From Ruegeria sp. TM1040 (GTDB taxonomy: Bacteria > Pseudomonadota > Alphaproteobacteria > Rhodobacterales > Rhodobacteraceae): a DNA stretch of 64,000 nucleotides. Shown here one piece after another: positions 42,194-64,000 of this stretch. Under the pieces are notes generated by a model, which saw nothing but the letters and a program-made list of their open reading frames with translations, was not told the origin of the DNA and did no database searches. The position numbers and the translations under genes are program-made. The stretch is taken from NCBI RefSeq assembly GCF_000014065.1, contig NC_008043.1, forward strand, positions 687,001 through 751,000, read 5' to 3'. Each line of letters starts with the position of its first letter. The first letter of the stretch is position 1.

Positions 42194-45100
42194 CTAGCTG
42201 GAGACGTAGCCCGCCACAACCTGTAGCAATTTGAAGGCGGTGTTGGCGTCGTTCTCCACCACCGCGAGGAACTCTTCTTCACCGATGCGAAGACAGGTGA
42301 GATCGCTCTCGGCGATCATCGACAACGCACGCGGTTCTTTACGGATCAGCCCCAGTTCGCCTACCAGACGTCCGGGTCCGACTTTGGCGATCAACTGGCT
42401 CTTGGTACCGGGATCTTCCGCGGGGAGGTAGAGCCCTGCCTCGCCTTCGATGATCATATACGCCCCGTCGGTGGCAGCATCATCCTTATGGAAGACGGCG
42501 GTGCCCGGCGTGGCCTCATACCAGCGCGCACTAAAGGCAAGAAGGCGCAGCTGACGGCGGTTGAGCCCGGAGAAAAGCTCCGTGCTCTCCAGTGCCCGCA
42601 ATTTGCGCGACAGATCCGCAGCAGAGGCGCTGTCTTCGTCTGCGGCTCCCCGCTCGGCCGCGCGCTCATCTTTCAGCCGGCCCTGGCGCATCTCGAAATA
42701 ATGATCAAAGCGGTCCGGGTCCTTGAACGCAGGCTCAAGGAAAATCAGTGTCGATTGCGGCAGGAGGTCCCGCAGATTGTCCTGCATGGCGCGTCGCGTG
42801 GCGCGGTCAAAACTCGCCAGCGCGCCATCTAGGATCAGGATGTCAGGACGTTTGATCGACGCACGGCAGAAGGCCAGCGGTTCCGCAAAACTCTGCCCGA
42901 GCCCCTGCCCGCCCACCGATACCGGCAGATCAAAGATGAGCTCCACCACCATTTCGCGCACACCGGCCGCGTCGATGACTTCGGCCACGGTCTTGCGCAG
43001 ATCCTCCGCCCGCGCCCCTGCGTTGTCAGAGATCTTACCGAAGATTGCATTCTCAAGCACGGTGAAGCCGGGGGCAAAACGATCCTTGTTGAGCGGTACA
43101 AAGAGGTCATCCAGCGTCTCAAGAAGCTCTCGTCCGTGGCTGTCGCGCAAGCTCAGGATCCGGTTTTCGATTTCGGAGCTGAATGCCGGACCAAGGGCTT
43201 CGGCAGAGATCGAGAATGGCACGATCATCATCTGCGCGAGTTCTTCAGGCTCCAAAGCTTCGGTCCCTCTGGATTTCACCTTCTGCAGAAGTTGTAGCGC
43301 GGCCTCGTAATCGCTGGCCTCAAGCCCCAGTTTGCGGAACAACGGGTGGACGGTGCCATCCATGCCAAAGATCTGGCGCAGCATCTCGAGCACATCCTGT
43401 GCTAGCGCCACCAAGTCCTTGTCGAGCCCGATGCGCCGCAGGGTCTGCAGGAATTCTGTCTGCTCGCGCAGCAGTTCATAGGTGATGGGCACGGATCGGG
43501 TGGCATAGAGGAGGTTTTCCACCACCGGCAGCGCGGGATTGTAATGCGCGGGATTGTTGAAACGCGCAAAAGCATCCAGTCCTGCGTCCATCAGCGCACG
43601 TTGCACACGAGGGCGCAGATCGATCAGCGCTTGCGCCAGCTTGGGGTGTTCCTCCCGGTCAAAGACCTGATCCATGCCACGGCGCAGCAAGGCGGTATCG
43701 GATCCGATCCCCTCGACGATGCGCAGCCACCAGTCCCGCAGCTCCTCGGGTTTTTCGAACCCGGCGATTTTGGGGTCGACCCAGTTCACCCCAAAGGGAT
43801 CAGGGCTGTTGCCTGCACGGATTGCATCACGCACCGCCCGTGCGTCGCTGGGATCTTCGAGCGGGCGCACGCGCAGGGGCATCAGAACGTTTTCACCAAA
43901 GGACCCTTTGAAGAGCGCCGGGCGCGAGGTGGCATGCCCGATACGGGTTGCGAGCACCATCTGGTGCAACTCGCGAATGTCATGTCCGGCCAGCGTGACG
44001 GTGCCGGACGCGGGCAAAACCTCGCGCGTCAGCACTTCGGCCAATGCGCGACGATCCTCCTCGGATGGGGCTGCGATGCCGATCAATTCGCCCTTGGGGA
44101 AGGTGGCAGAGAGTTCCTCGAGGATCAGGTTGCCATCGGCGTCGCGCACGCTCACGTCCTTGAGCACGATGTCTCCGTCCAGATGCGGCAGTTCCTCTGG
44201 TTCGCCCTCCATCAGGCGCTCGTCGACCATGTCCGGCGGCGCAAAGCGTTCCAGGATCACCTCCCAGCGCAGCGACATATCCTGTGTCTGGTTGTAGTAG
44301 GTGAGCAACTCCTTCCACGGGGACGCCAAATCCTTGTAGGCCGCAAGAGCTGCCACCAGCGCCCCGAGCGAGACCTTGCCCTCCAGCACCAAGTAGCCGC
44401 CCACCGCGTAGAAAAAGAACGGTGTCAGCTGGGTGATGAAGTTGTTGAGGAACTTCATGAAGAATTTTTTCTGGTAGATCTCGAAGCGGATCTCGTAGAG
44501 CCGCCCCAGCCGATCCGTCACCCGCGCCATCCGGTAGCGCCAGCCCCCATTGACCCGCAGCGTCGAGGCCCCGGCCGCACTTTCCCCGATTTCCGATGCC
44601 AGCGCCCGCACTTGCTGGATGCGTTTCTTATTGAGGAGGTTGATCCGGCGTTGCAGCAGCGGGATGAGCCAGCCCTGCAAGGGGATCAGAGCCACCGCAG
44701 CCAAGCCGAACCAGAAATTCTGCGCGAATAGAAAATAGAGGATGGTGAGCATCTGCCCGGCTTGCAGCACCGGTTGACTGACCGCATCGCCCATCAATCC
44801 GCCCATGGGCTCTGATTCGGAGGTGATCATGGAGACCAACTCGCCCTGGCTGGTGCGCTCGAAATAGGGTTGCGGGAAACGCAGAACACGCGCGATCAGA
44901 CTATACCGAAATCGGCGCAGCATCCGTTCGGCCAACACACCTTTCATGGTGTTGATCCGCATTTTTGTCAGCCCATGTGCGAGCACGGCCAGAAGAAAAG
45001 CACCGCACAGGATCCACAGATAGGTCAGCTGATCGACCTGCTGCCCCAGTACCTCGATGGTCGAACTCTGCGCCCCGATCGCGTCGTTGATGATGCGCTT

Positions 45101-45325
45101 GGGCAGCTCAAGGGTCAGATAAAGCAGGGGAAACAGGCAAGCGGTCACAACCAGCAAAACCAACTGGTCGCGCTTGGAGTATTTCCAGATGAATTGGAAT
45201 AGCGAGCGTTCTATGGGGCGGCTCCGCGGTTCGAGCGTCAGGGTGAGATCTCTGTCATCGAACGATGACAGAAGGGTTTTGACATGGGTAGCGCGGTTTG
45301 TCCTCTTCAGGCAATGATGCAGCAT
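42194..45325 (-). CDS. ABC-exporter-like protein with degenerate, interrupted NBD and C-terminal cNMP-binding domain
   Basis: A 1043-residue protein. Residues about 45-345 form a type-IV ABC exporter membrane domain with six helices (KYSKRDQLVLLVVTACLFPLLY...). An NBD starts near 384, but every catalytic motif is altered. The Walker A position reads A419-P-S-E-E-D-R425-R426 in place of GPSGxGKS/T. The signature position reads LGQSF. Walker B keeps D833 but has G834 for the catalytic Glu. The switch His region reads FLEPA. About 270 mostly helical residues (about 485-745) separate the Q-loop part (LFKGSFGENV) from the signature part. Residues about 905-1035 are a cNMP-binding barrel (VGELGLIRKEPRAL). 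The start has a weak ribosome site. It probably does not hydrolyse ATP and may be a cNMP-regulated membrane scaffold or channel. Function unknown. Confidence 0.9.
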   Translation of the reverse strand: MLHHCLKRTNRATHVKTLLSSFDDRDLTLTLEPRSRPIERSLFQFIWKYSKRDQLVLLVVTACLFPLLYLTLELPKRIINDAIGAQSSTIEVLGQQVDQLTYLWILCGAFLLAVLAHGLTKMRINTMKGVLAERMLRRFRYSLIARVLRFPQPYFERTSQGELVSMITSESEPMGGLMGDAVSQPVLQAGQMLTILYFLFAQNFWFGLAAVALIPLQGWLIPLLQRRINLLNKKRIQQVRALASEIGESAAGASTLRVNGGWRYRMARVTDRLGRLYEIRFEIYQKKFFMKFLNNFITQLTPFFFYAVGGYLVLEGKVSLGALVAALAAYKDLASPWKELLTYYNQTQDMSLRWEVILERFAPPDMVDERLMEGEPEELPHLDGDIVLKDVSVRDADGNLILEELSATFPKGELIGIAAPSEEDRRALAEVLTREVLPASGTVTLAGHDIRELHQMVLATRIGHATSRPALFKGSFGENVLMPLRVRPLEDPSDARAVRDAIRAGNSPDPFGVNWVDPKIAGFEKPEELRDWWLRIVEGIGSDTALLRRGMDQVFDREEHPKLAQALIDLRPRVQRALMDAGLDAFARFNNPAHYNPALPVVENLLYATRSVPITYELLREQTEFLQTLRRIGLDKDLVALAQDVLEMLRQIFGMDGTVHPLFRKLGLEASDYEAALQLLQKVKSRGTEALEPEELAQMMIVPFSISAEALGPAFSSEIENRILSLRDSHGRELLETLDDLFVPLNKDRFAPGFTVLENAIFGKISDNAGARAEDLRKTVAEVIDAAGVREMVVELIFDLPVSVGGQGLGQSFAEPLAFCRASIKRPDILILDGALASFDRATRRAMQDNLRDLLPQSTLIFLEPAFKDPDRFDHYFEMRQGRLKDERAAERGAADEDSASAADLSRKLRALESTELFSGLNRRQLRLLAFSARWYEATPGTAVFHKDDAATDGAYMIIEGEAGLYLPAEDPGTKSQLIAKVGPGRLVGELGLIRKEPRALSMIAESDLTCLRIGEEEFLAVVENDANTAFKLLQVVAGYVSS

Positions 45326-45479: not shown

Positions 45480-45869
45480 TTGCCAGAACATGTCGGTACA
45501 GTCCTGCTGCTGATCTGCCTGTTTGAAGTCAAACATATGTTTGCGGACTTCTACTTGCAGACCAAGAAGATGCTGTCGGGCAGGTGCCAGTATTTTCATC
45601 CCGGACGCGCCCAGCATGCGGGGGTACATGCATTGGCTTCGGTGGTGGTCCTGTTTGTCATGGGCAGCCCGGCCTGGTTCATCGCGCTGATCTGCGCAGT
45701 GGAGTGGTTTATCCATTTCAATATCGACTTCTGGAAGGCGCATCACACGGAGTGCAACAAGCTCGATCCCACCCAGGGTGCCTTCTGGCGTGCGATGGGA
45801 ACCGATCAACTGCTGCACCATCTGACCTATGTCGGCATGACCGCCGCCTGGGCCGCGGTCTGCCTCTAA
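45480..45869 (+). CDS. DUF3307 membrane protein
   Basis: A 129-residue protein with about four hydrophobic segments. The family pattern is visible: an N-terminal helix then H-M-F-A-D-F-Y-L-Q (EVKHMFADFYLQTKK), HAGVHALASVVVLF, and a C-terminal TDQLLHHLTYVGM, so the conserved His and Asp residues are kept. TTG 45480 is preceded by AGAGGA. The function of DUF3307 is not established. It shares a promoter region with the ABC/cNMP protein. Confidence 0.82.
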   Translation: MPEHVGTVLLLICLFEVKHMFADFYLQTKKMLSGRCQYFHPGRAQHAGVHALASVVVLFVMGSPAWFIALICAVEWFIHFNIDFWKAHHTECNKLDPTQGAFWRAMGTDQLLHHLTYVGMTAAWAAVCL

Positions 45870-51486: not shown

Positions 51487-51876
51487 TGATGTCTCTGGTT
51501 CTGGGCCGCCCTCTCAGGGGCGCAATCCCAGCACAGTGCCTTGTGCGTCCAGCCAGATCAAGCCACCCTGCCGGTGCGGGGACGCAACCTCTTCGATGCG
51601 CGGCGCAGAAGCAGTAAGTAGTGCTCGCGACTTCCTGGTCCTGCCAGTGCAGTAATGGATGCTGTCGCATGGCTGTTGCATGCCCGCTCTATGAGCGCCT
51701 CAAACGCTGCGGGCTACGCCAAACAATGACTGAAGGAACACAATTTCCCGATCACGGGGTATCGCGGTCAAATGGCATTTGACTACAAGGGCCTGACCGC
51801 GCGAAGGTAAGGCAAAAATCAGGGAGAACTCTCATCTTCATACCTGCGCAGCGACGACGTGGCTGGGCCATCTGAC
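51487..51876. other. 390-base intergenic region, TetR gene to ABC operon
   Basis: No convincing gene is seen. On the minus strand a frame ends with a plausible protein tail at about 51516 (PHRQGGLIWLDAQGTVLGLRP then stop) but has no start or recognisable domain, so at most it is a remnant. The half near the ABC operon holds the 51768-51784 palindrome. The start of the ABC ATPase has no strong ribosome site, so the leader may matter for its expression. Confidence 0.5.
51768..51784. promoter_or_regulatory. palindrome GTCAAATG-G-CATTTGAC, candidate TetR operator
   Basis: A perfect 17-base dyad, the size and symmetry usual for TetR-family operators, is 92 bases before the ATPase start and 282 bases before the TetR gene start. 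A second GGTCA/TGACC pair (51767-51771 and about 51793) widens the symmetry. Binding by the adjacent TetR protein is inferred. Confidence 0.55.
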
Positions 51877-53649
51877 ATGCGCCCCCTTTTGTCGGTCGAA
51901 AATCTCAGCATTGGCTTTGGTCGCGATGCACCTGTGGTGCAGAACGTGAATTTCGAAGTGAATCCGGGTGAAACACTGGCGCTGGTCGGTGAAAGTGGCT
52001 CTGGTAAGACCATCAGCTGCCGCGCGGTGCTGCGCATTCTGCCGCGCACTGCACGCCTGCATTCGGGTCGCATGATCCTGCGCGGCGACCAGGATGAGCT
52101 GGATCTGGCCCGCATCAGCGAGCGACAAATGCGCCATGATGTGCGCGGAAACCGCATTGCGATGATCTTTCAGGAGCCGATGCGCTCTTTGTCTCCGCTG
52201 CATCGGATCGGCAATCAGGTGGTGGAGATCATCCATCTTCACAGAAGCGTCTCTGAAGAAGCGGCCAAACGCGAGGTGCTGGAGTGTTTCGAGCGCGTTG
52301 GGTTCCCCGATCCCGAGCGCACCTGGCGCTCCTATCCGTTCGAGCTTTCGGGCGGCATGCGCCAGCGCGCAATGATCGCCATGGCCATGGTTGCCAAGCC
52401 GGATCTGCTGATCGCGGATGAACCCACAACTGCGCTTGATGTGACCACTCAGGCACAGGTTCTGGGGCTGATGAAGGATCTGCAGCGCGAGACCGGCATG
52501 GCCATGGTCCTCGTCACCCATGATCTTGGCGTGGTGGCCAATATGGCCGAGCAGGTGGTGGTGATGCACAAGGGTCGTGTCATGGAGGCAGGCCCAGCCG
52601 AACCTATCCTGCGCGCGCCCGCCCATCCCTACACCAAGGATCTTTTTGAGGCGGCGCCCAAGATCCCGCCGGCGATTTCCCCAGCGCCACAGGAGCAGCA
52701 GGATCTGATCCTCGAGCTGCGCAATGTCACCAAGACCTTTACCATGCGCTCGGGCAAAAGCTGGAGCAAGCCGACCCTCGTGCGTGCCTGTGACAGCGTT
52801 GATCTGCGACTGCCGCGGGGCAAGACCTTGGCAATTGTTGGCGAAAGCGGTTCAGGCAAGACCACAGCTGCACGCATTGCGCTCGGCGCGGAAACGGTGG
52901 ATGCGGGCGGCGAGGTGCTCTTTCGCCACGCCGCGGGGGCAGAGGCACTCGAGGTGCATGATATGGATCGCGACGCTCGCCGCGCGTTCCAGCGGCAGGC
53001 GCAGATGGTGTTTCAAGACCCCTATTCCTCGCTCAGTCCGCGCCAGCGGATCTTTGACACGCTGGCAGAGCCGCTCGAAATCCACGGCATCGGCGCGCGC
53101 GCCGATCACAAGGCCCGTGCAGCCGAGATGCTGCGCCTTGTTGGGCTGCCCGGCGATATGCTCAGCCGGTATCCGCATGCGTTTTCCGGCGGTCAGCGCC
53201 AGCGCCTCTCTATAGCCCGAGCGCTGATGCTCGACCCGGCTCTTCTGGTATGTGACGAGCCGACCTCGGCGCTGGATGTCTCGGTGCAGGAACAGATCCT
53301 GACCCTGCTGGAAGAAATCCGCGACGCGCGCCAGCTTTCCTATCTCTTTATCAGCCACGACCTTGCGGTGGTGGCCCGGATCGCCGATGAGGTCGCGGTG
53401 ATGCGGCGTGGCCTCATTGTGGAACAGGGCCCGCCCGAAGTGCTGTTTCACAACCCCAAACACCCCTACACCAAGGCACTTATTGCTGCCCAGCCGGTCC
53501 CCGATGTGGATCGCCCCATCAATCTCAAACTTGTGGCACAGGGCGCAGGCGCGCCCGAAAGCTGGCCGGAGGCCTTCCGCTTTGCCGGAGAGAATGCCCC
53601 GCCGTTGGTGCCACTGGATCCCGGACATAAGGTACGCTGTCATGTCTAA
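51877..53649 (+). CDS. ABC transporter ATPase, fused DppD-DppF type (YejF-like)
   Basis: A 590-residue protein with two complete ATPase units in one chain. The first Walker A GESGSGKT is at 38-45 and the second near 322-329. Both have intact signatures (LSGGMRQR and FSGGQRQR), Walker B with Glu ([20 protein letters not shown]) and switch His. Each ends in the oligopeptide-transporter C-terminal motif ([20 protein letters not shown]). YejF and Dpp/Opp systems import peptides or peptide-like compounds. GTG 51859, six codons upstream, is another possible start, and neither has a clear ribosome site. Its stop overlaps the binding-protein gene by eight bases. Confidence 0.9.
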
Positions 53650-55561
53650 CGCCCGTCCCCTGCTTTCCTTCACCAGTGCCCTTGCCTTTCTGCTGCTGCC
53701 GCTTGCGACGGTTGCTCAACCCACCGTGCAAGAAAGCGCCTTCTGGAGCCATGAGGTCAGCGCAGGCGATCTGCCGCCCGCCGCTGAACGCATCCCCGCA
53801 GAGCCGCTGGTGGTGAACCTCGCCGCCAAGGGGCGCAGTCCGGGCATTCCCGGCGGCACGCTCAATACGATGGTCACGCGCTCCAAGGACATCCGCCAGA
53901 TGGTTGTCTACGGCTATGCGCGCCTTGTGGGATACAACGAGAACTACGAGCTCGTGCCCGATGTGCTACAAAGCTTTGAAAGCGAGGGCGATCGCAAATT
54001 CACCCTGCACCTCCGCGAGGGGCATAAATGGTCCTCTGGCGATCCTTTCACCTCGGCGGATTTTGAATACTGGTGGACACACATTGCCAACAACCGCGAG
54101 CTCAATCCCACCGGCCCGCCGGATTTTGTGCGCGTCGAGGGCGAGTTGCCGGAGGTCACTTTTCCGGATGACACCACTGTGGTTTTTGAGTGGAGCACCC
54201 CCAACCCCAGCTTCCTTCAGGTGCTGGCGCAGGCGGTGCCACCCTTCATCTACCGTCCCTCCGCCTATCTGAAACAGTTCCACAAGGACTTTGCCGACCC
54301 CGAAGCCTTGGAAGAGGAAATCGACTACGCCCGCGTCAAGAGCTGGGCCGCGCTGCACAACAAGCGCGACAATATGGACAAGTTCGACAATCCTGACCTG
54401 CCGACGCTACAGCCTTGGATCAACGCCACCGCAGGCAAGAAGATCCGCCATCAATTTGTGCGCAATCCGTACTATCATCGCATCGATGAGAACGGCGTGC
54501 AGCTCCCTTATATCGACACGGTCGAAATGGAGATTGTGTCGGGCGGGTTGGTCGCGGCAAAATCCAACGCGGGCGAGGCCGACCTGCAGGCACGTGGGCT
54601 TGATTTCAGAGACATTCCGATCTTGCGCAAAGGCGAGGCAAATGGTGACTATCGCACCGAGCTATGGTCCTCGGGCACTGCCTCGCAGATTGCGATTTAT
54701 CCGAACCTGAACGCGGCGGATGAAGTCTGGCGCGCGACCCTGCGCGATGTGCGTGTGCGCCGCGCCCTTTCGGTGGCGATCAACCGAGCAGCCATCAATA
54801 AATCGCTCTATTTCAAGCTGGCAAAGCCCGGCGCGATGACGGTTCTGGAGAAAAGCCCCTTCTTTGAGCAAGAGTTGCGGGACGCGTGGGCCCAGTATGA
54901 TCCCGATCTCGCCAACACGCTGCTGGATGAGGCAGGCCTCACGGAACGTGACGGCTACGGCATCCGCCGCCTGCCCGACGGGCGCCCGATGGAATTGGTG
55001 GTGGAAACCGCAGGCGAGCGGCAAGAGGTAGAAAATGCGCTGCAGATCATCACAGATGACTGGCGCGATGTGGGTGTAAAGCTGGTGATGCGCCCGCTCG
55101 ATCGCGACATCCTGCGCAATCGTGTGTTCTCGGGCACCACCATGGCCTCGGTCTGGTACGGCTGGGACAATGGCCTCCCACAGAGCTACACCTCCCCGGC
55201 CTATCTTGCGCCCACGGATCAGGTGTTTTTGTCCTGGCCCAAATGGGGTCAGTATTATCAAACCAGCGGCGCGGTGGGCGAAGCGCCAGATATGGCACCG
55301 GCGCAGCGTCTGATGGAGCTTCTGGACGACTGGAACAAGGCACCAGATGCCAACAAACGGGCCGAAGCCTGGCATGAGATGCTTGAAATTCACGCCGAAA
55401 ATGTCTTTGCAATTGGTCTGGTGGCAGCCGCGCCGCAGCCCGTTGTGGTCTCAAACCGTCTGCGCAATGTGCCCAAGACGGCGATCTGGGCCTGGGATCC
55501 CGGCGCACATTTTGGCGTGCACCGGATGGATGAGTTCTACTTTGAGGATGGCGAAGGCTGA
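53642..55561 (+). CDS. ABC transporter substrate-binding protein, family 5 (DppA/YejA-like)
   Basis: A 639-residue periplasmic protein with a signal peptide (LLSFTSALAFLLLPLATVAQ). It is longer than ordinary DppA (about 530) and close to YejA in length. Typical features are GGTLNTMVTRSKDIRQMVVYGYARLVGYNENYELVPDVLQSFE, YNYR-like LREGHKW and DVRVRRALSVAINRAAINK. The substrate could be peptides, opines, glycosylated or acylated compounds. The coupled CoA-transferase hints at a carboxylic acid. Confidence 0.9.
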   Translation: MSNARPLLSFTSALAFLLLPLATVAQPTVQESAFWSHEVSAGDLPPAAERIPAEPLVVNLAAKGRSPGIPGGTLNTMVTRSKDIRQMVVYGYARLVGYNENYELVPDVLQSFESEGDRKFTLHLREGHKWSSGDPFTSADFEYWWTHIANNRELNPTGPPDFVRVEGELPEVTFPDDTTVVFEWSTPNPSFLQVLAQAVPPFIYRPSAYLKQFHKDFADPEALEEEIDYARVKSWAALHNKRDNMDKFDNPDLPTLQPWINATAGKKIRHQFVRNPYYHRIDENGVQLPYIDTVEMEIVSGGLVAAKSNAGEADLQARGLDFRDIPILRKGEANGDYRTELWSSGTASQIAIYPNLNAADEVWRATLRDVRVRRALSVAINRAAINKSLYFKLAKPGAMTVLEKSPFFEQELRDAWAQYDPDLANTLLDEAGLTERDGYGIRRLPDGRPMELVVETAGERQEVENALQIITDDWRDVGVKLVMRPLDRDILRNRVFSGTTMASVWYGWDNGLPQSYTSPAYLAPTDQVFLSWPKWGQYYQTSGAVGEAPDMAPAQRLMELLDDWNKAPDANKRAEAWHEMLEIHAENVFAIGLVAAAPQPVVVSNRLRNVPKTAIWAWDPGAHFGVHRMDEFYFEDGEG

Positions 55562-56589
55562 TGGAAATTCTGCGCTACGCGCTCTATCGCTTTGGCACCA
55601 TGCTGCTGACACTCCTACTGGTGTCGGTGCTGATCTTCTGGATCATCAACTTGCCGCCTGGCGACTTCCTGTCGAACCAGATTGCTGAGCTGCGCGCCAC
55701 GGGTCAGGAGGCCGGTGTCGCCAAGGCTGAGTTCCTGCGCAAGGAATATGCGCTCGACCGCTCCCTCGCGGAGCAATATCTGATCTGGATGGGCTTCTGG
55801 CCCGGCCCTCACGGGTTTTCCGGCATGCTGCAGGGCAATTTTGGCTGGTCCTTTGAATTTGACCGCCCCGTGGCAGAGATCGTGGGCGACAGCCTTTGGC
55901 TCACGGTTCTGGTGAACCTCGCAGCGGTGCTGTTTGTCTATATCGTCGCCCTGCCCCTTGGCGTTCTGGCCGCCGCCAAGTCGCGCACGATGATCGATTA
56001 TACAGCAGCTTTTATTGGCTATTTGGGGCTTGCCACGCCGAACTTCCTGCTTGCCCTGATCCTGTTTTACTATGGGCATCAATACCTCAACCTGCCCATC
56101 GGCGGCCTGATGGCGCCAGAGTTTGAGGGCGAGCCGATGTCTTGGGAAAAGGTCAAATCCATCCTCATTCACCTGATCGTGCCCACCTTTGTGATCGGCA
56201 CCTCGGGAGCCTCCGCGATGATGCAGCGCCTGCGTGCCAACATGCTGGACGAGCTGGGCAAACCCTATGTGGAAACCGCTGTGGCCAAGGGTATGCGCCC
56301 GTCTCGAATGTTGGCAAAATATCCGCTGCGGGTGGCGTTTAACCCCTTTGTGGCCGACATCGGCAATCTGCTCCCGGCAATGGTCTCCGGCTCGGTTCTG
56401 GTCTCTGTCGTGCTGGGCCTGCAAACCATCGGGCCGGTCCTGCTGCAGGCGCTCAAGTCGCAGGACATGTTCCTGTCGGGATTCGTTTTGATGTTTGTCG
56501 CGCTTTTGACCCTCATCGGCACCATGATCTCCGACGTGCTCTTGGTGCTGCTTGATCCGCGCATCCGCTATGAGGGGCGCAAATCATGA
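55561..56589 (+). CDS. ABC transporter permease, DppB-type
   Basis: A 342-residue permease with about six helices and the EAA loop VETAVAKGMRPSRMLAKYPLRVAFNPFVADIGNLLPAM. A periplasmic stretch after the first helix contains LRKEYALDRSLAEQYLIWMGFWPGPHGFSGMLQGNFGWSF, the usual DppB pattern. Its start shares a base with the binding-protein stop. Confidence 0.92.
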   Translation: MEILRYALYRFGTMLLTLLLVSVLIFWIINLPPGDFLSNQIAELRATGQEAGVAKAEFLRKEYALDRSLAEQYLIWMGFWPGPHGFSGMLQGNFGWSFEFDRPVAEIVGDSLWLTVLVNLAAVLFVYIVALPLGVLAAAKSRTMIDYTAAFIGYLGLATPNFLLALILFYYGHQYLNLPIGGLMAPEFEGEPMSWEKVKSILIHLIVPTFVIGTSGASAMMQRLRANMLDELGKPYVETAVAKGMRPSRMLAKYPLRVAFNPFVADIGNLLPAMVSGSVLVSVVLGLQTIGPVLLQALKSQDMFLSGFVLMFVALLTLIGTMISDVLLVLLDPRIRYEGRKS

Positions 56590-57743
56590 GCGAAAAACAC
56601 CCCGACGGCCGTTTTGTGGATGATGCGCCCTATGACCCGCAGGCCTCGATCCGCGAACTGGAGCGCAAGGATCTCGACGCGCCGAACTGGGTGCTGATCT
56701 GGCGCAAGTTCAAGACCCACCGCCTGGGGTTGATCTCGGGCATATTCCTGCTGTTTTGCTATGTGATGCTGCCGTTTGTAGGCTTCATCGCGCCCTATGG
56801 CCCCAACGAGCGCAACGCCGAGCATCTCTATTCGCCACCGCAGTCCGTGAACTTCTTTCACGAGGGCGAATTCCTGGGCCCGTTTATCTATCCGCTGACT
56901 TCAGAGGCCGATCTTGAGACATTTCAATGGGTGGTGAAGCCTGATTACGACAACCCGCAACAGATCCGTTTCTTTTGCGAGGGGGCCGAATATCGACTGG
57001 CGGGTCTGATCCCTGCCAACACCCATCTCTTTTGCGCGCCCGAAGGGGCGACATTGTTTCTCTGGGGGTCAGATCGCCTGGGACGTGACATCTTCAGCCG
57101 CATTCTCTTTGGCGCGCAGCTCTCGCTCACCGTGGGTCTGATCGGCATCACGGTATCTTTTGTTCTCGGGATCTTTTTTGGCTCTGTTGCGGGGTATTTC
57201 GGCGGCAAGATCGACTGGGTCATCAACCGCGCCATCGAAATCCTGCGCAGCCTGCCCGAGCTGCCGCTCTGGCTGGCGCTTTCAGCAGCGGTCCCCTCCA
57301 CATGGTCGCCGGTGGCAGTGTTTTTCATCATTTCCATCATCCTCGGCATCCTCGACTGGCCGGGTCTTGCGCGTTCCGTCAGGGCCAAGTTCCTGAGCCT
57401 GCGCGAAGAGGAATACGTCCGCGCCGCCGAAATGATGGGCGCATCTTCAGGGCGCGTGATCAAGAAACACCTGCTGCCCAACTTCATGAGCCATCTTATC
57501 GCCTCGGCCACATTGTCGATCCCGGCAATGATCTTGGGAGAGACGGCGCTCTCGTTCCTTGGGCTCGGTCTGCGCGCCCCGGCAGTGAGCTGGGGGGTGA
57601 TGCTCAATGACGCGCAGAACCTTGCCAATATCGAGATCTACCCCTGGACCGCGATCCCAATGCTGCCGATCATCGTGGTCGTTCTGGCGTTCAACTTTCT
57701 GGGCGACGGTCTGCGCGATAGTCTGGATCCCTATCAGCAATGA
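56586..57743 (+). CDS. ABC transporter permease, DppC/YejE-type
   Basis: A 385-residue permease, longer than DppC (about 300). The extra part is a periplasmic insert of about 90 residues after the first helix (NERNAEHLYSPPQSVNFFHEGEF...GATLFLWGSDRLGRDIF), as in YejE-like proteins. The EAA loop is YVRAAEMMGASSGRVIKKHLLPNFMSHLIA. It overlaps both neighbours by four bases. Confidence 0.92.
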   Translation: MSEKHPDGRFVDDAPYDPQASIRELERKDLDAPNWVLIWRKFKTHRLGLISGIFLLFCYVMLPFVGFIAPYGPNERNAEHLYSPPQSVNFFHEGEFLGPFIYPLTSEADLETFQWVVKPDYDNPQQIRFFCEGAEYRLAGLIPANTHLFCAPEGATLFLWGSDRLGRDIFSRILFGAQLSLTVGLIGITVSFVLGIFFGSVAGYFGGKIDWVINRAIEILRSLPELPLWLALSAAVPSTWSPVAVFFIISIILGILDWPGLARSVRAKFLSLREEEYVRAAEMMGASSGRVIKKHLLPNFMSHLIASATLSIPAMILGETALSFLGLGLRAPAVSWGVMLNDAQNLANIEIYPWTAIPMLPIIVVVLAFNFLGDGLRDSLDPYQQ

Positions 57744-59167: not shown

Positions 59168-61522
59168 TCAGCGGTCATCGCCGCCGTCGTTCGAATCCAT
59201 CAGATCATCCTCGATAGCCGCCTGCGCCGCGCCAAGGGCGGCGTCGCGCTTAGCCTCGGGGACTTTTTCGCCGGTGTCATCCACAACGCGCACGGTGACC
59301 TCGCGGTGGGCAAACTTGATACCCTCGCGTTCGAAGAGATCCCGGATTTCCTGAAAAACCTTCTTGCGCACCAGCCACTGATCGCCGGGCTTGGTCATGA
59401 ACTTCACACGGATGATCATTGCGGAATCCTGCATCTCGATCACGCCCTGCGATTTCAGAGGCTGAATGAAGTTGTGACCGATTACCGGATCGTTCAGCAA
59501 CTCCTTGCCGAGGGTCTTGATCAGCTTGCGCACCTTTTCGACATCCGTGTCATAGGTCACGCGCAGCGGCAGCTTCATGATCACCCAGTCGCGCGAATAG
59601 TTTGTCAGCACCTGGATTTCGCCAAAGGGAATGGTGTGCAGCGCCCCAAGGTGATGGCGCAGCTGAAACGACCGCACGGAGATCTTCTCGACCGTGCCCT
59701 TCACACTGCCGATGTCGATGTATTCGCCCCGGCGAAAGGCATCGTCGATCAGGAAAAACGCGCCCGAGAATATATCGCGCACCAGGGTCTGTGAGCCAAA
59801 TCCAACCGCCAGGCCCACGACACCGGCACCGGCAAACAGCGGGCTCACATTGATGCCGATCTCCATCAGCACGATGAGAATGATCGTGACCACAACCACC
59901 GCCAGAATTGCGCCACGGAACAGAGGCAGGAGCGTGGCCAGGCGGCTGGCACTGCTGCCCCCGCCTTCGTCGCCCAACTCGCCATCCGGCTGATCTTGCG
60001 TTTCTTCTTCGATTTTGCTGTCAATCCAGATCCGGGCGATATGGAAAACCAGATATCCGATGAAGAGGATCACCAGCACATCGATTGCCCGATCGAGCCA
60101 GGGCGCATCCTCCATTGCAAACTCGGGGTTCCAGATGAATATCAGCGAAACGGCACCGACGAGAAAGGCCAGGATGCCCGCTGCGCGACGAGCCAGATCC
60201 TTGTAGGTCGCAATCGGGTGGCGCGCCGTGGTCTTTTCTTGAGCGTCTTCGCTGTTTTCGTCGTCGCTTTGCGTCGTGTCATCTGTGGTCTCGATGATCC
60301 GGCGGCGCGAGGTGAATTGTTCGATCACGTAGTTGATCAGACCATAGACCACCAGGATCGAGGTCAGCACCGCAAAGAGACCCATATTCGGCGGCAGCGC
60401 GCTTGGGTTCTCAAGCACGAGGTCAAACGTCAGAGCCAACCAGCCAAAGGCGATGTAGAGGATTACGATGGGTGCCCAGACCCACGACAGCAGACGGTTT
60501 GGCCAGGCCACCACGTGTGCATCGCCCACATGGCGGATCGCACCGGAAATGGCCCGCGCGTTGAACAGCACGAGCAGGATTGCCAGCAGCGAAGAGGCCA
60601 GCATCAGCAACGAATAGGTCAGCGCATAGATATTGTAGTTGAGACCAAAATCCTGCACCCAGGTCGAAACCATAACGGCGACAAAATCAAAGGTCGCAAG
60701 TCCCGAGAGCCAGAAGTAGAGCCGCTTTGCATCCCTGTCCGAAAGCGACGGGATGCGATACTGGCTGAGGTAGGGCGAGAGCACCATGCGCCACAGATCA
60801 GAGATCGTGCGTGCCACAAAAAACGTTAGATAGACCGCAAGCGACGTGAACTCGATCGAGACATCCCCCGAGGGGCCAAACACCAGCAGCGTCACGATCA
60901 GCGCAAAGATCATTGCAAAAAGCGTACCGCCCAGACCGGCAGCAAACCGGATGAACAGGAATGGCATCTTCCCGGCATAGCCTTCGGGCTTTTCCTCGAT
61001 ACGGCTCACGACATAGCTTTTGATAAGCCGCTTGCCGTATATCTCGGTCGAGAGCCAGCGTCCGATCAACAGCAGGACGGTCGTAATCAGCACCACTTTG
61101 ACATAAGTGATGATGCGGCCGTCGGGGCTGGTCGCGCGCAGGATGTAGGCCATCTCGATATAGGAGCTGGGGAGCGACTTCAGCCGTTCGTTGAGCTTGC
61201 TGCGAAAATCGCGCAGCTCGCTTTGTGCCTTCATCATTGATGAGGCGCCGCCCATGACGCCCGGTTCCTCTTCCATCGCGGACCCGGCCTGCGCCACAAC
61301 TTCGGCACCACTGAGCGCGCGGCCGCTGCTGTCGACGATCACGACGCCCACACCTGCCTCTGCGGCCTGTCGGATCGCATCAGCAAGATCGCTCTGAGAA
61401 CGCGCTTCCTCGGAGGTTCCCTGGGACACCAGCGTCGATTGCGCATCAGCAGGCACACTGCCAAGCAGGCCGATCGTAGCTGCGATCAGCCACAGGCGGA
61501 GCAAAGCGGTCAATCTCGACAT
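59168..61522 (-). CDS. mechanosensitive ion channel, MscS family (large, multi-helix)
   Basis: A 784-residue inner-membrane protein. A signal peptide ends near PADAQ, followed by a periplasmic domain of about 100 residues with a coiled stretch and then roughly nine to eleven helices. The MscS core, with the pore helix GVVGLAVGFGSQTLVRDIFSGAFFLIDDAFRRGEYIDIG, lies near residues 560-600, followed by the beta domain and alpha-beta C-terminus. It opens under membrane tension to release solutes on osmotic downshock. ATG 61522 is six bases after AAGGAAG. A charged loop rich in D and E (TTDDTTQSDDENSEDAQEK) lies between helices. The length is nearer to MscM/YbdG-like long forms than to MscS (286). 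Confidence 0.9.
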   Translation of the reverse strand: MSRLTALLRLWLIAATIGLLGSVPADAQSTLVSQGTSEEARSQSDLADAIRQAAEAGVGVVIVDSSGRALSGAEVVAQAGSAMEEEPGVMGGASSMMKAQSELRDFRSKLNERLKSLPSSYIEMAYILRATSPDGRIITYVKVVLITTVLLLIGRWLSTEIYGKRLIKSYVVSRIEEKPEGYAGKMPFLFIRFAAGLGGTLFAMIFALIVTLLVFGPSGDVSIEFTSLAVYLTFFVARTISDLWRMVLSPYLSQYRIPSLSDRDAKRLYFWLSGLATFDFVAVMVSTWVQDFGLNYNIYALTYSLLMLASSLLAILLVLFNARAISGAIRHVGDAHVVAWPNRLLSWVWAPIVILYIAFGWLALTFDLVLENPSALPPNMGLFAVLTSILVVYGLINYVIEQFTSRRRIIETTDDTTQSDDENSEDAQEKTTARHPIATYKDLARRAAGILAFLVGAVSLIFIWNPEFAMEDAPWLDRAIDVLVILFIGYLVFHIARIWIDSKIEEETQDQPDGELGDEGGGSSASRLATLLPLFRGAILAVVVVTIILIVLMEIGINVSPLFAGAGVVGLAVGFGSQTLVRDIFSGAFFLIDDAFRRGEYIDIGSVKGTVEKISVRSFQLRHHLGALHTIPFGEIQVLTNYSRDWVIMKLPLRVTYDTDVEKVRKLIKTLGKELLNDPVIGHNFIQPLKSQGVIEMQDSAMIIRVKFMTKPGDQWLVRKKVFQEIRDLFEREGIKFAHREVTVRVVDDTGEKVPEAKRDAALGAAQAAIEDDLMDSNDGGDDR

Positions 61523-61945
61523 GGTGTTCTTCCTTTTCGCTCGCGGGGCGATTTGACTGCTGAAAAGCCGCAAACAAGCCACGATTTTCGATTTTGCACC
61601 GCCAATCGTCCCTAGATCTCATAGGCTTGATTGCACGATGGCTTAACGCAAGCTATACCACGCGTGTTTCAAAGGTCGGGTTATTGTTTTGGCGTGTTCC
61701 TGCAGCCATATCCATTCCCGCGATACGCATGAGAAAATCGGTCGCGCCACAGATTGCCACGGGCGCGTTCAAAGCACGTTGGGGCGGAATATGGCCAAAA
61801 CGCAACGCGCCACCCAGACGAGGTGCTGCACATCGCCCGCCATACGGCCCTGCGCCGTCTTTTCTTGTGTGCTCAAGCGACCGAGTCCGCGCTTGCGCCT
61901 GATGAAACCCGCCCGTCCGATCATATCCTGCAAGCGAGTCGCGCC
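61523..61945. other. 423-base intergenic region, MscS to glycosyltransferase
   Basis: It must hold divergent promoters for the channel and for the sugar-transferase genes. The part from about 61820 is open in frame with the glycosyltransferase (DEVLHIARHTALRRLFLCAQATES...), so the true start of that gene may be upstream. A 52-codon frame from 61793 overlapping the start at 61946 in ATGA looks like a possible leader, but I cannot support it as a gene. Confidence 0.45.
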
Positions 61946-63166
61946 ATGAGTGCCAGCCCCCTTCCCCGTTTCGGCCCTTCGGACCGTGGCCCCCGCATCC
62001 TGTTTTACAGTCACGACACGTTTGGCCTTGGTCACTTGCGGCGCTCGCGCGCCCTGGCAGCGGCGATCACTTCGGCGGACCCCAAAGCCTCTGCAATGAT
62101 CCTGACCGGCTCGCCAGTGGCGGGGCGATTTGCCTTTCCCAATCGCGTGGACCACATGCGCCTGCCCGGTGTGATCAAGCGCGCTGACGGCTCATATGCC
62201 AGCCGCACAATGGGTATGAGCATCGAAGAGACCACGGAGCTGCGCGCGGGCCTCATCCGCTCCACCGCCGAGCAGTTTGCGCCCGATATACTGGTGGTCG
62301 ACAAGGAACCCACCGGATTTCGCGGCGAGTTGATCCCCACGCTTGATCTCTTGCAGGAACGCGGCCAGGCGCGCCTTGTGCTGGGTTTGCGCGATGTTCT
62401 GGACGAACCAGAAGTGCTGCGCGCCGAATGGGAGCGCAAATCCGCGCTCGAGGCGGCAGAGACCTACTATGATGAAATCTGGATCTACGGTTTGCATGAC
62501 GTCTATGATCCGACCGCAGGCCTGCCCCTGAGCAAAGAGACACAGGCGCGCATGCACTGGACGGGCTATCTGCGCCGCGATCTCGGCGAAGTGGGCGAGC
62601 CTCCAGAGCAGCCTTATGTTCTGATTACCGCCGGCGGTGGCGGCGATGGCGCGATGATGGTGGATCTTGCGATTTCCGCCTATGAACGCGATCCCACTCT
62701 CACGCCACGCGCGATGCTGGTCTACGGCCCGTTCCTGTCCGGTGACACCCGCGCCGCATTTGAGGATCGGGTCGCCGCCCTTGACGGGCGGGTCAGCGCC
62801 GTCGGCTTTGAGAGCCAGATCGAGACGCTGTTTGCCGGAGCGCAGGGCGTCATCTGCATGGGCGGTTACAACACGTTCTGCGAGGTGCTTTCGTTTGACA
62901 AACCGGCCGTGATTGTGCCGCGTACCACGCCCCGGCTGGAGCAGTGGATCCGGGCCAGCCGTGCCGAGGAACTGGGCCTCGTGACCATGCTCGACGAAAC
63001 CCGCGATGGCTGGACGCCCGAGGCGATGATCGGTGCGATCCGCGCGCTGGAGCGCCAGCCTAACCCCTCAAAAGCGATCTCTGACGGGCTACTTGACGGA
63101 CTCGACTATGTGACCGAACGGGTCAATGCACTGTTGCAACAACTCCCGCGTGAGGTCAGCGCATGA
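61946..63166 (+). CDS. glycosyltransferase family protein (MurG-like fold)
   Basis: A 406-residue protein with a GT-B fold. The N-terminal loop GPRILFYSHDTFGLGHLRRSRALAAAI resembles the glycine-rich loop of MurG-type transferases. The nucleotide-sugar-binding C-terminal part has VLITAGGGGDGAMMV and VICMGGYNTFCEVLSFDKPAVIVPRT. It should transfer a sugar from a nucleotide donor for polysaccharide or glycolipid synthesis. ATG 61946 has a weak ribosome site, and in-frame upstream extensions are possible. The next glycosyltransferase overlaps in ATGA, so the two act in one pathway. Confidence 0.86.
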   Translation: MSASPLPRFGPSDRGPRILFYSHDTFGLGHLRRSRALAAAITSADPKASAMILTGSPVAGRFAFPNRVDHMRLPGVIKRADGSYASRTMGMSIEETTELRAGLIRSTAEQFAPDILVVDKEPTGFRGELIPTLDLLQERGQARLVLGLRDVLDEPEVLRAEWERKSALEAAETYYDEIWIYGLHDVYDPTAGLPLSKETQARMHWTGYLRRDLGEVGEPPEQPYVLITAGGGGDGAMMVDLAISAYERDPTLTPRAMLVYGPFLSGDTRAAFEDRVAALDGRVSAVGFESQIETLFAGAQGVICMGGYNTFCEVLSFDKPAVIVPRTTPRLEQWIRASRAEELGLVTMLDETRDGWTPEAMIGAIRALERQPNPSKAISDGLLDGLDYVTERVNALLQQLPREVSA

Positions 63167-64000
63167 CTGGAAAACGCCCCGCGCTTGCTGTGTTGGTCAA
63201 AGGCTGGCCGCGCCTTTCCGAGACCTTTATCGCGCAGGAACTTGTCGCTCTTGAGGCGGCGGGGCAGCCTTTTGAGATTTGGTCGCTGCGTCACCCCACC
63301 GACACCAAAACTCACCCGCTTCATGATCGCCTCCAGGCACCGGTGCATTACCTGCCGGAGTATCTCTATGATGCGCCCGCTCGGGTGGCCGAGGCTCGCA
63401 CTCGGGCGCAGACGCTGCCGGGCTACGCGGCGGCCTACGAAGTCTGGCGCGCTGATCTGCGCCGCGACCCGACGCACAACCGCATTCGCCGCTTTGGTCA
63501 GGCCTGTGTCCTGGCGGCGGAACTGCCGCCCGAGGTGCGCGGCCTTTATGCCCATTTCCTGCATACGCCCGCTTCGGTGGCGCGCTATGCCGCAATCATG
63601 CGGGGCCTGCCGTGGAGCTTTTCGGCCCATGCAAAAGACATCTGGACCTCGCCCGAATGGGAGTTGCGCGAAAAGCTCTCGGCGGCCAGCCATGGCGCGG
63701 CCTTTGGGGCCACCTGCACAGGGTTTGGCGCGAAGCATCTACAAGAGCTCTCTGACGGCACGCCTGTGGATCTGATCTATCACGGGCTTGATCTGTCGCG
63801 GTTCCCCGCCCCCCCTGCGCGTGTACTGCGCAGCCCGAATGCGCCGTTTCACATGATGTCGGTGGGGCGGCTGGTGGAGAAGAAAGGCTTTGACCGCTTG
63901 ATCGCCGCGCTTGCGCTCCTGCCTCGGGATCTTGACTGGCACTGGACCCATATCGGTGGTGGCGGACTTGGGGATCTGTTGCAGGGCATGGCCGAAGACG
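63163..64000 (+). CDS. glycosyltransferase family 4 protein, C-terminally cut by the window
   Basis: An open frame from ATG 63163 to the last base (279 codons). It begins MTGKRPALAVLVKGWPRLSETFIAQELVALEAAG, the pattern of WcaL/AmsK-like group 1 transferases, and reaches the donor-binding domain start (FHMMSVGRLVEKKGFDRLIAALALLPRDLDWHWTHIGGG). The family uses nucleotide sugars for exopolysaccharide repeat units. The E-x7-E motif lies beyond the window. It is translationally coupled to the preceding glycosyltransferase. Confidence 0.88.
   Translation, partial: MTGKRPALAVLVKGWPRLSETFIAQELVALEAAGQPFEIWSLRHPTDTKTHPLHDRLQAPVHYLPEYLYDAPARVAEARTRAQTLPGYAAAYEVWRADLRRDPTHNRIRRFGQACVLAAELPPEVRGLYAHFLHTPASVARYAAIMRGLPWSFSAHAKDIWTSPEWELREKLSAASHGAAFGATCTGFGAKHLQELSDGTPVDLIYHGLDLSRFPAPPARVLRSPNAPFHMMSVGRLVEKKGFDRLIAALALLPRDLDWHWTHIGGGGLGDLLQGMAED

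Follow-up and report, generated by a model that had tools for sequence, protein, structure and literature searches.

The minus-strand frame at 42194..45325 of the window (the whole stretch of Ruegeria sp. TM1040 DNA analysed here, 64,000 nucleotides long) encodes a 1043-aa protein, here named P0001, in which an ABC-exporter-like pseudo-ATPase is fused to a cNMP-binding (CNB) domain, as judged from the open frame, Pfam matches, orthologues and an AF2 model. Comparison of related sequences gives good support to two statements, that P0001 is a pseudo-ATPase kept under selection and that its gene belongs with a set of glycosyltransferase genes as a module. We tentatively favour, at a little below an even chance, a reading in which P0001 would be an ATPase-dead permease for a glycan or glycolipid, or a regulator of glycan synthesis, serving as membrane and signalling subunit and gated by cAMP or cGMP.

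The frame runs for 1043 codons without a stop in the ORF translation, as a preliminary description of this DNA had said without naming the strand. That description had also recognised a normal type-IV exporter membrane domain and a C-terminal cNMP-binding domain, and both are borne out by the domain searches. The transmembrane domain (TMD) occupies residues 40-365 (44231..45208, minus strand, as are all coordinates given for P0001) and matches ABC_membrane (PF00664) over residues 88-327 with an E of 1e-19; its model aligns to TmrAB, PCAT1 and TM287 chains. The NBD comes in two halves. The first (residues 380-485, 43871..44188) was placed by a weak PF00005 match and by structure fit, the ABC_tran match at residues 402-492 being found only below the curated cut-off, and the second (residues 787-890, 42656..42967) was recognised from an LGQSF signature, an LILDG Walker B and the lack of a switch His. 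Without the sequence that separates these halves, the modelled NBD fits the TAP1 NBD (4k8o) with Z 21.6 and rmsd 2.7 over 232 residues, and with the PDB sequence and structure matches this gives P0001 the type-IV TMD and, in the model, the NBD fold of the ABC exporter superfamily. The CNB domain covers residues 900-1043 (42197..42628), with a cNMP_binding match (PF00027) at residues 939-1026 (E 1e-14) and a fit by structure. The AF2 model of the whole chain, computed from an alignment of close orthologues only, has a pLDDT of 77. In NCBIfam, P0001 comes closest to the MsbA model, far under its cut-off, and Pfam gave no match to a peptidase domain in P0001. Since the first ~35 residues are unconserved and modelled at pLDDT ~30, the true start of the protein is uncertain. 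A divergently oriented gene for a DUF3307 membrane protein (45480..45869, plus strand; PF11750) lies next to it, and tblastn of loci placed this gene beside the P0001 orthologue in 79 of 80 Roseobacter loci, including those whose other neighbours vary; it was not found beside the paralogue group.

The ATP-site motifs of P0001 are lost, each at the position that the preliminary description had given. In place of the Walker A consensus GxxxxGK[ST], motif reading and family alignments show APSEEDRR at residues 419-426 (44048..44071), conserved in the clade; the LSGGQ signature has become LGQSF (LPAVF or LAASF in orthologues); Asp833 of Walker B is retained, the catalytic Glu is replaced by Gly834 and the switch His by Glu. 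The replacement residues are themselves fixed: D424 and R425 are invariant among 43 aligned orthologues, the APSEEDRR block is found throughout a 101-sequence family alignment, and replacement of the P-loop is common to the Roseobacter orthologues. Column by column, conservation in the same 101-sequence alignment is highest in the TMD. Every domain showed a dN/dS of 0.01-0.25 in four ortholog pairs, ratios that are rough because most of these comparisons had a dS close to or beyond saturation. A second copy in the genome has 50% identity to P0001 and identical motif losses. The earlier view of a maintained pseudo-ATPase rather than a decayed gene thus finds support in the fixed replacement residues, the strong purifying selection and the equally dead paralogue. 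A sequencing artefact or pseudogene was ruled out by the open frames of close orthologues, except L109, and by the low dN/dS.

Some observations were made on individual copies. The L109 orthologue is split over two frames and the paralogue match at G005:C7:83256-86264 has one in-frame TAG, each of which may reflect decay or an assembly error, and the L178 member (G034:C62) matches in two pieces inside a single long frame. The paralogue at L002:1447-4554 (50% identity) is followed by a CAAX-protease-like gene, and a related copy on a Ruegeria plasmid record (L203) precedes a CAAX-protease gene and accD. The closest plasmid-record relatives of P0001 are those of Tritonibacter mobilis, at 93%.

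The preliminary description had called the overall NBD order readable, which is too simple; it had overlooked ~300 extra residues that split the NBD, as it had the wider family, the CNB partner gene and the glycosyltransferase/Yej cluster described below. This insert (residues 486-786, 42968..43870), delimited by the family alignment A1, repeat profiles and the AF2 model, is without counterpart in normal NBDs and carries two extra copies of an ENxxFG/helical segment, which makes three copies in total. The FxGTxxENVLM motif that ends the Q-loop region recurs twice, as YNPALPVVENLLYA and FAPGFTVLENAIFGK. By profile comparison, repeat 1 is the original Q-loop/ENV segment (residues 462-560, 43646..43942), repeat 2 holds YNPALPVVENLLYA (residues 585-690, 43256..43573) and repeat 3 holds FAPGFTVLENAIFGK (residues 738-820, 42866..43114). 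The profiles match each other with an E of 3e-15 for repeats 2 and 3, 1.6e-7 for repeats 1 and 2 and 9e-7 for repeats 1 and 3, values that are pairwise and come from segments picked after the motif had been noticed. In the whole-chain AF2 model the insert is looped out of the NBD, and a separate model of residues 486-806 reached pLDDT 84. Searching with the insert alone, Foldseek returned nothing under E 0.8, and further structure comparison stayed at Z <= 3.5 with no clear known fold; helical segments of ABC NBDs (MsbA, ABCD1, MRP3 and TAP) match about the second repeat at Z 2.1-2.3, too weak to count by itself.

The CNB domain would likely bind a cyclic nucleotide, given that both key contact residues are conserved and that its model resembles PKA and PKG. 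Its phosphate-binding cassette, GELGLIRKEPRA (residues 989-1000, 42326..42361), was read from the 101-sequence alignment, where 89 sequences have E990 and 98 have R999; the paralogue group has Asp at position 990. The modelled domain fits a PKA regulatory domain with bound cAMP (5j3u; Z 20.4, rmsd 2.2 over 138 residues) and also the CNB-B of PKG II with cGMP, so that the fold and a cassette with both Glu and Arg are present together. Among family members that are not fused, 106 of 117 have a CNB gene of their own immediately downstream and in the same orientation, and 100 of these 106 genes encode the Glu..Arg cassette, which supports a CNB partner as nearly obligate for the family. The class III cyclase domain has seven matches in the genome. 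A role as a defence system was also considered and rejected, the PADLOC result being only a weak match of a TIR-effector model to the CNB region (E 5e-4).

We defined the family by a match to the ~330-aa insert profile A1, which P0001 also matches and which has matches in 131 genomes of a class-wide sample of 385 from Alphaproteobacteria. In a phylum-wide sample, 31 of 398 genomes had a match, every one within Alphaproteobacteria, a result limited by the unestablished class make-up of that sample. Most members were assigned taxonomically by kinship code; the named plasmid-record members that were looked up (Rhizobium, Sinorhizobium, Phyllobacterium, Azospirillum and Roseobacteraceae) are all Alphaproteobacteria. 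Decay of the ATP site is common in the family and not universal. Of the 158 members aligned after near copies in the Roseobacter group had been thinned, 65 have the P-loop Lys, 13 the adjacent S/T, 42 the Walker B Asp and 66 the catalytic Glu. Member L225 has the full set (GDGNSGKT, LSGAQ, VLDEAT and His), and L161, L163 and L164, which have a fused CNB domain, combine SDSGKS-type P-loops (GSSDSGKS-type in L161 and L163) with VVDE. The preliminary description's claim of a dead NBD therefore stands for the Roseobacter-type clade but not for these four homologues, and because they keep their motifs the architecture as such is not ATPase-dead. Partly intact ATP sites in relatives also indicate that the ancestral function used ATP.

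On a midpoint-rooted tree of 105 rows, built from TMD and insert columns by a quick method, CNB-fused members fall on one side of a branch with an SH-aLRT of 97, and the fusion is placed as having had a single origin, while no fewer than 17 changes are required to account for the state of the P-loop Lys. Because L161 and L163, with the P-loops and VVDE given above, branch early within the fused group on this midpoint-rooted tree, the fusion probably preceded the full motif loss seen in Roseobacters. E/D stands in place of the Walker A S/T in 100 of the 158 members; of these 100, 89 also lack the Walker B Asp, which is lost in 3 of the 13 members with a Walker A S/T. This pattern could be a swap of the metal-ligand acid between sites. 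As an alternative Mg site the swap was rejected: the raw association is strong, but on the tree it is not significant (sign test, median p 0.25).

Relatives that consist of the TMD only also exist. They are 352-489 aa long, share ~37-43% identity with the P0001 TMD and lack an NBD; they are found within the same genus as well as on Phaeobacter, Pseudosulfitobacter and Azospirillum plasmids. Among seven of them (L174, L175, L176, L177, L200, L201 and L202), six are in copper/metal-resistance clusters, several on plasmids, and their usual neighbours are multicopper oxidase, plastocyanin-like and metal-efflux genes. Most to nearly all of the conserved TMD charges of P0001, acidic residues among them, are kept in these NBD-less proteins, and their coupling regions are shortened and divergent, which, together with the copper context, suggests that they may act differently. 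Their existence establishes that this type of TMD occurs without an NBD and says nothing of the role of P0001 itself.

The gene neighbourhood places P0001 with a putative glycan module. Within the same window, 6-20 kb from its gene and all on the plus strand, are genes for a YejF-like peptide-importer ATPase (51859..53649; two PF00005 matches, with the YejF model as best NCBIfam match under its cut-off), a YejA-like substrate-binding protein (53642..55561; PF00496; the ORF opens at 53408 and the start at ~53642 is estimated), YejB- and YejE-like permeases (55561-56589 and 56586-57743; PF00528), a glycosyltransferase, GT1 (61754..63166; PF04101), to which homologues align from about residue 75, and GT2, of GT4 type (63164..64000), which runs past the window end. 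L204 carries the continuation of the cluster, which adds two further glycosyltransferases and a 252-aa protein. Between the yej-like genes and GT1, the minus strand at 59168-61582 appears by eye to encode a large MscS-type channel-like protein.

GT1 was found in 127 and the pseudo-ABC gene in 131 of the 385 genomes, with both in 124 and either in 134; the Fisher p of ~7e-88 treats genomes as independent and is thus overstated. The two genes lie no more than 6 kb apart in 84 of 119 genomes compared, and no more than 20 kb apart in 14 of 17 genomes of the same genus, the other three having them on different contigs of drafts; the Ruegeria loci examined showed no glycan cluster within 8 kb of the gene. 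The Rhizobium etli genes are arranged as cyclase, yejF-A-B-E-like importer, three glycosyltransferases, pseudo-ABC and CNB, and a Sinorhizobium meliloti cluster resembles it, cyclase gene included. In at least 11 other genera the pseudo-ABC and CNB genes adjoin GT1-GT2-GT3, often divergently, and many of these loci have a yejF-like gene. The capsule genes smb20804/smb20805 (PMC5539429) and SMb20813, an 'msbA homologue' (PMC10945364), may or may not be located in or near the S. meliloti cluster (L199, L224; pSymB copy). The glycan link of P0001 is a putative one, by co-occurrence and neighbourhood alone. The cluster parts read contained no dedicated flippase or Wzx/Wzy, which makes an export role possible, and the clusters read showed no canonical half-exporter partner.

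MsbA, PCAT1, TmrAB and TAP have the TMD and NBD fold in common with P0001, which differs in having no catalytic motifs, a ~300-aa insert with two extra repeats and a C-terminal CNB domain. CFTR and SUR resemble it as ABC proteins that have become a channel or regulator controlled by nucleotides or the cAMP pathway, but they are eukaryotic, unrelated in detail and keep their ATP sites at least in part. In the heterodimers TM287/288, TAP and TmrAB (PMC7756269) a degenerate site is kept as a structural element, as in P0001, yet they retain one working site, whereas P0001 has lost its motifs and has no canonical partner linked to it. SbmA/BacA (SLiPT family), in which a type-IV ABC TMD works without ATP (PMC13316013), is comparable to the TMD-only relatives; it has a glutamate ladder and neither NBD nor coupling helices, whereas P0001 keeps NBD, insert and CNB domain. 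The preliminary description knew of no described function for the architecture. We likewise found no published account of the family (its architecture, pseudo-ATPase exporters or the S. meliloti locus) in the open-access literature searched, but a described exporter joined to a CNB domain does exist, namely HetC of Nostoc, a PCAT exporter whose CNB domain binds ppGpp and is required in vivo (PMC10986499). HetC shares with P0001 an exporter TMD and NBD joined to a CNB domain; unlike P0001 it is cyanobacterial, with a C39 peptidase, an N-terminal CNB domain and an essential ATPase residue (PMC10986499).

Under the favoured reading, P0001 would have descended from an MsbA-like homodimeric exporter whose NBD fold was retained and enlarged by the two additional helical-segment copies. 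In its clade the NBD would no longer bind or hydrolyse ATP normally and would probably act as a dimerisation and coupling scaffold, through which the fused CNB domain, on binding cAMP or cGMP, could switch the TMD. Movement of a glycan or anionic glycolipid, presumably the product of the linked glycosyltransferases, or the activity of its synthesis, would then track the cyclic-nucleotide level and not ATP turnover; if P0001 transports, the energy might come from the substrate or from a proton gradient, as in SbmA/BacA. Against this reading stand the relatives with partly intact ATP sites and the NBD-less relatives whose copper context may mean that they do something else, and the conservation of the NBD might reflect an unusual nucleotide site and not a scaffold. 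Its main rival, which we consider rather unlikely, is that P0001 moves no substrate and is an exporter-derived sensor or scaffold that reads the cyclic-nucleotide level and holds or regulates glycosyltransferases at the inner membrane. Loss of the ATPase with retention of NBD and CNB fits such a role, as do the close co-occurrence with a glycosyltransferase and the cyclase in rhizobial clusters, but the conservation of the TMD above the other domains, and its many invariant charges common to NBD-less copies, suggest a substrate or ion path.

The motif loss could also mislead, P0001 being driven by ATP or another nucleotide, either bound at a rebuilt site or used in partnership with a canonical half-transporter. 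The tie between the Walker A S/T to E/D change and loss of the Walker B Asp (89/100 versus 3/13) points this way, together with the members that retain Lys, Glu and switch His, complete in L225. We nevertheless judge it unlikely, as the acid swap loses significance on the tree and P0001 lacks both P-loop Lys and catalytic Glu; a heterodimer would have two composite sites with one dead partner in each, and the clusters read offer no half-exporter for it. A proton-coupled secondary transporter of SbmA/BacA type, with the NBD as a relic, draws on the TMD-only relatives and on the precedent of SbmA for a type-IV TMD that can run on protons (PMC13316013). Purifying selection on NBD and insert and the nearly obligate CNB partner argue that NBD, insert and CNB domain are not relics, and we regard this reading as improbable. 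That P0001 is a non-functional remnant, as the loss of every catalytic motif might suggest, is very improbable beside a frame intact across Roseobacter genera, low dN/dS and two paralogues retained in one genome.

In conclusion, P0001 may stand for a class of ABC-exporter-derived proteins in which ATP turnover gave way to cyclic-nucleotide gating, an ATP-independent surface-glycan permease with a triplicated NBD helical segment, although we consider this wider proposal doubtful. The family provides, on one tree, a natural series of ATP sites that range from nearly complete to wholly erased, beside a cyclic-nucleotide sensor that is almost obligate, so that the conversion of an ABC exporter scaffold to ligand gating becomes directly testable. 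The gene module, apparently a widespread and undescribed one for a surface sugar polymer, occurs in roughly one in three of the sampled alphaproteobacterial genomes, among them those of legume symbionts and marine Roseobacters, with an apparent tie to cyclic-nucleotide signalling.
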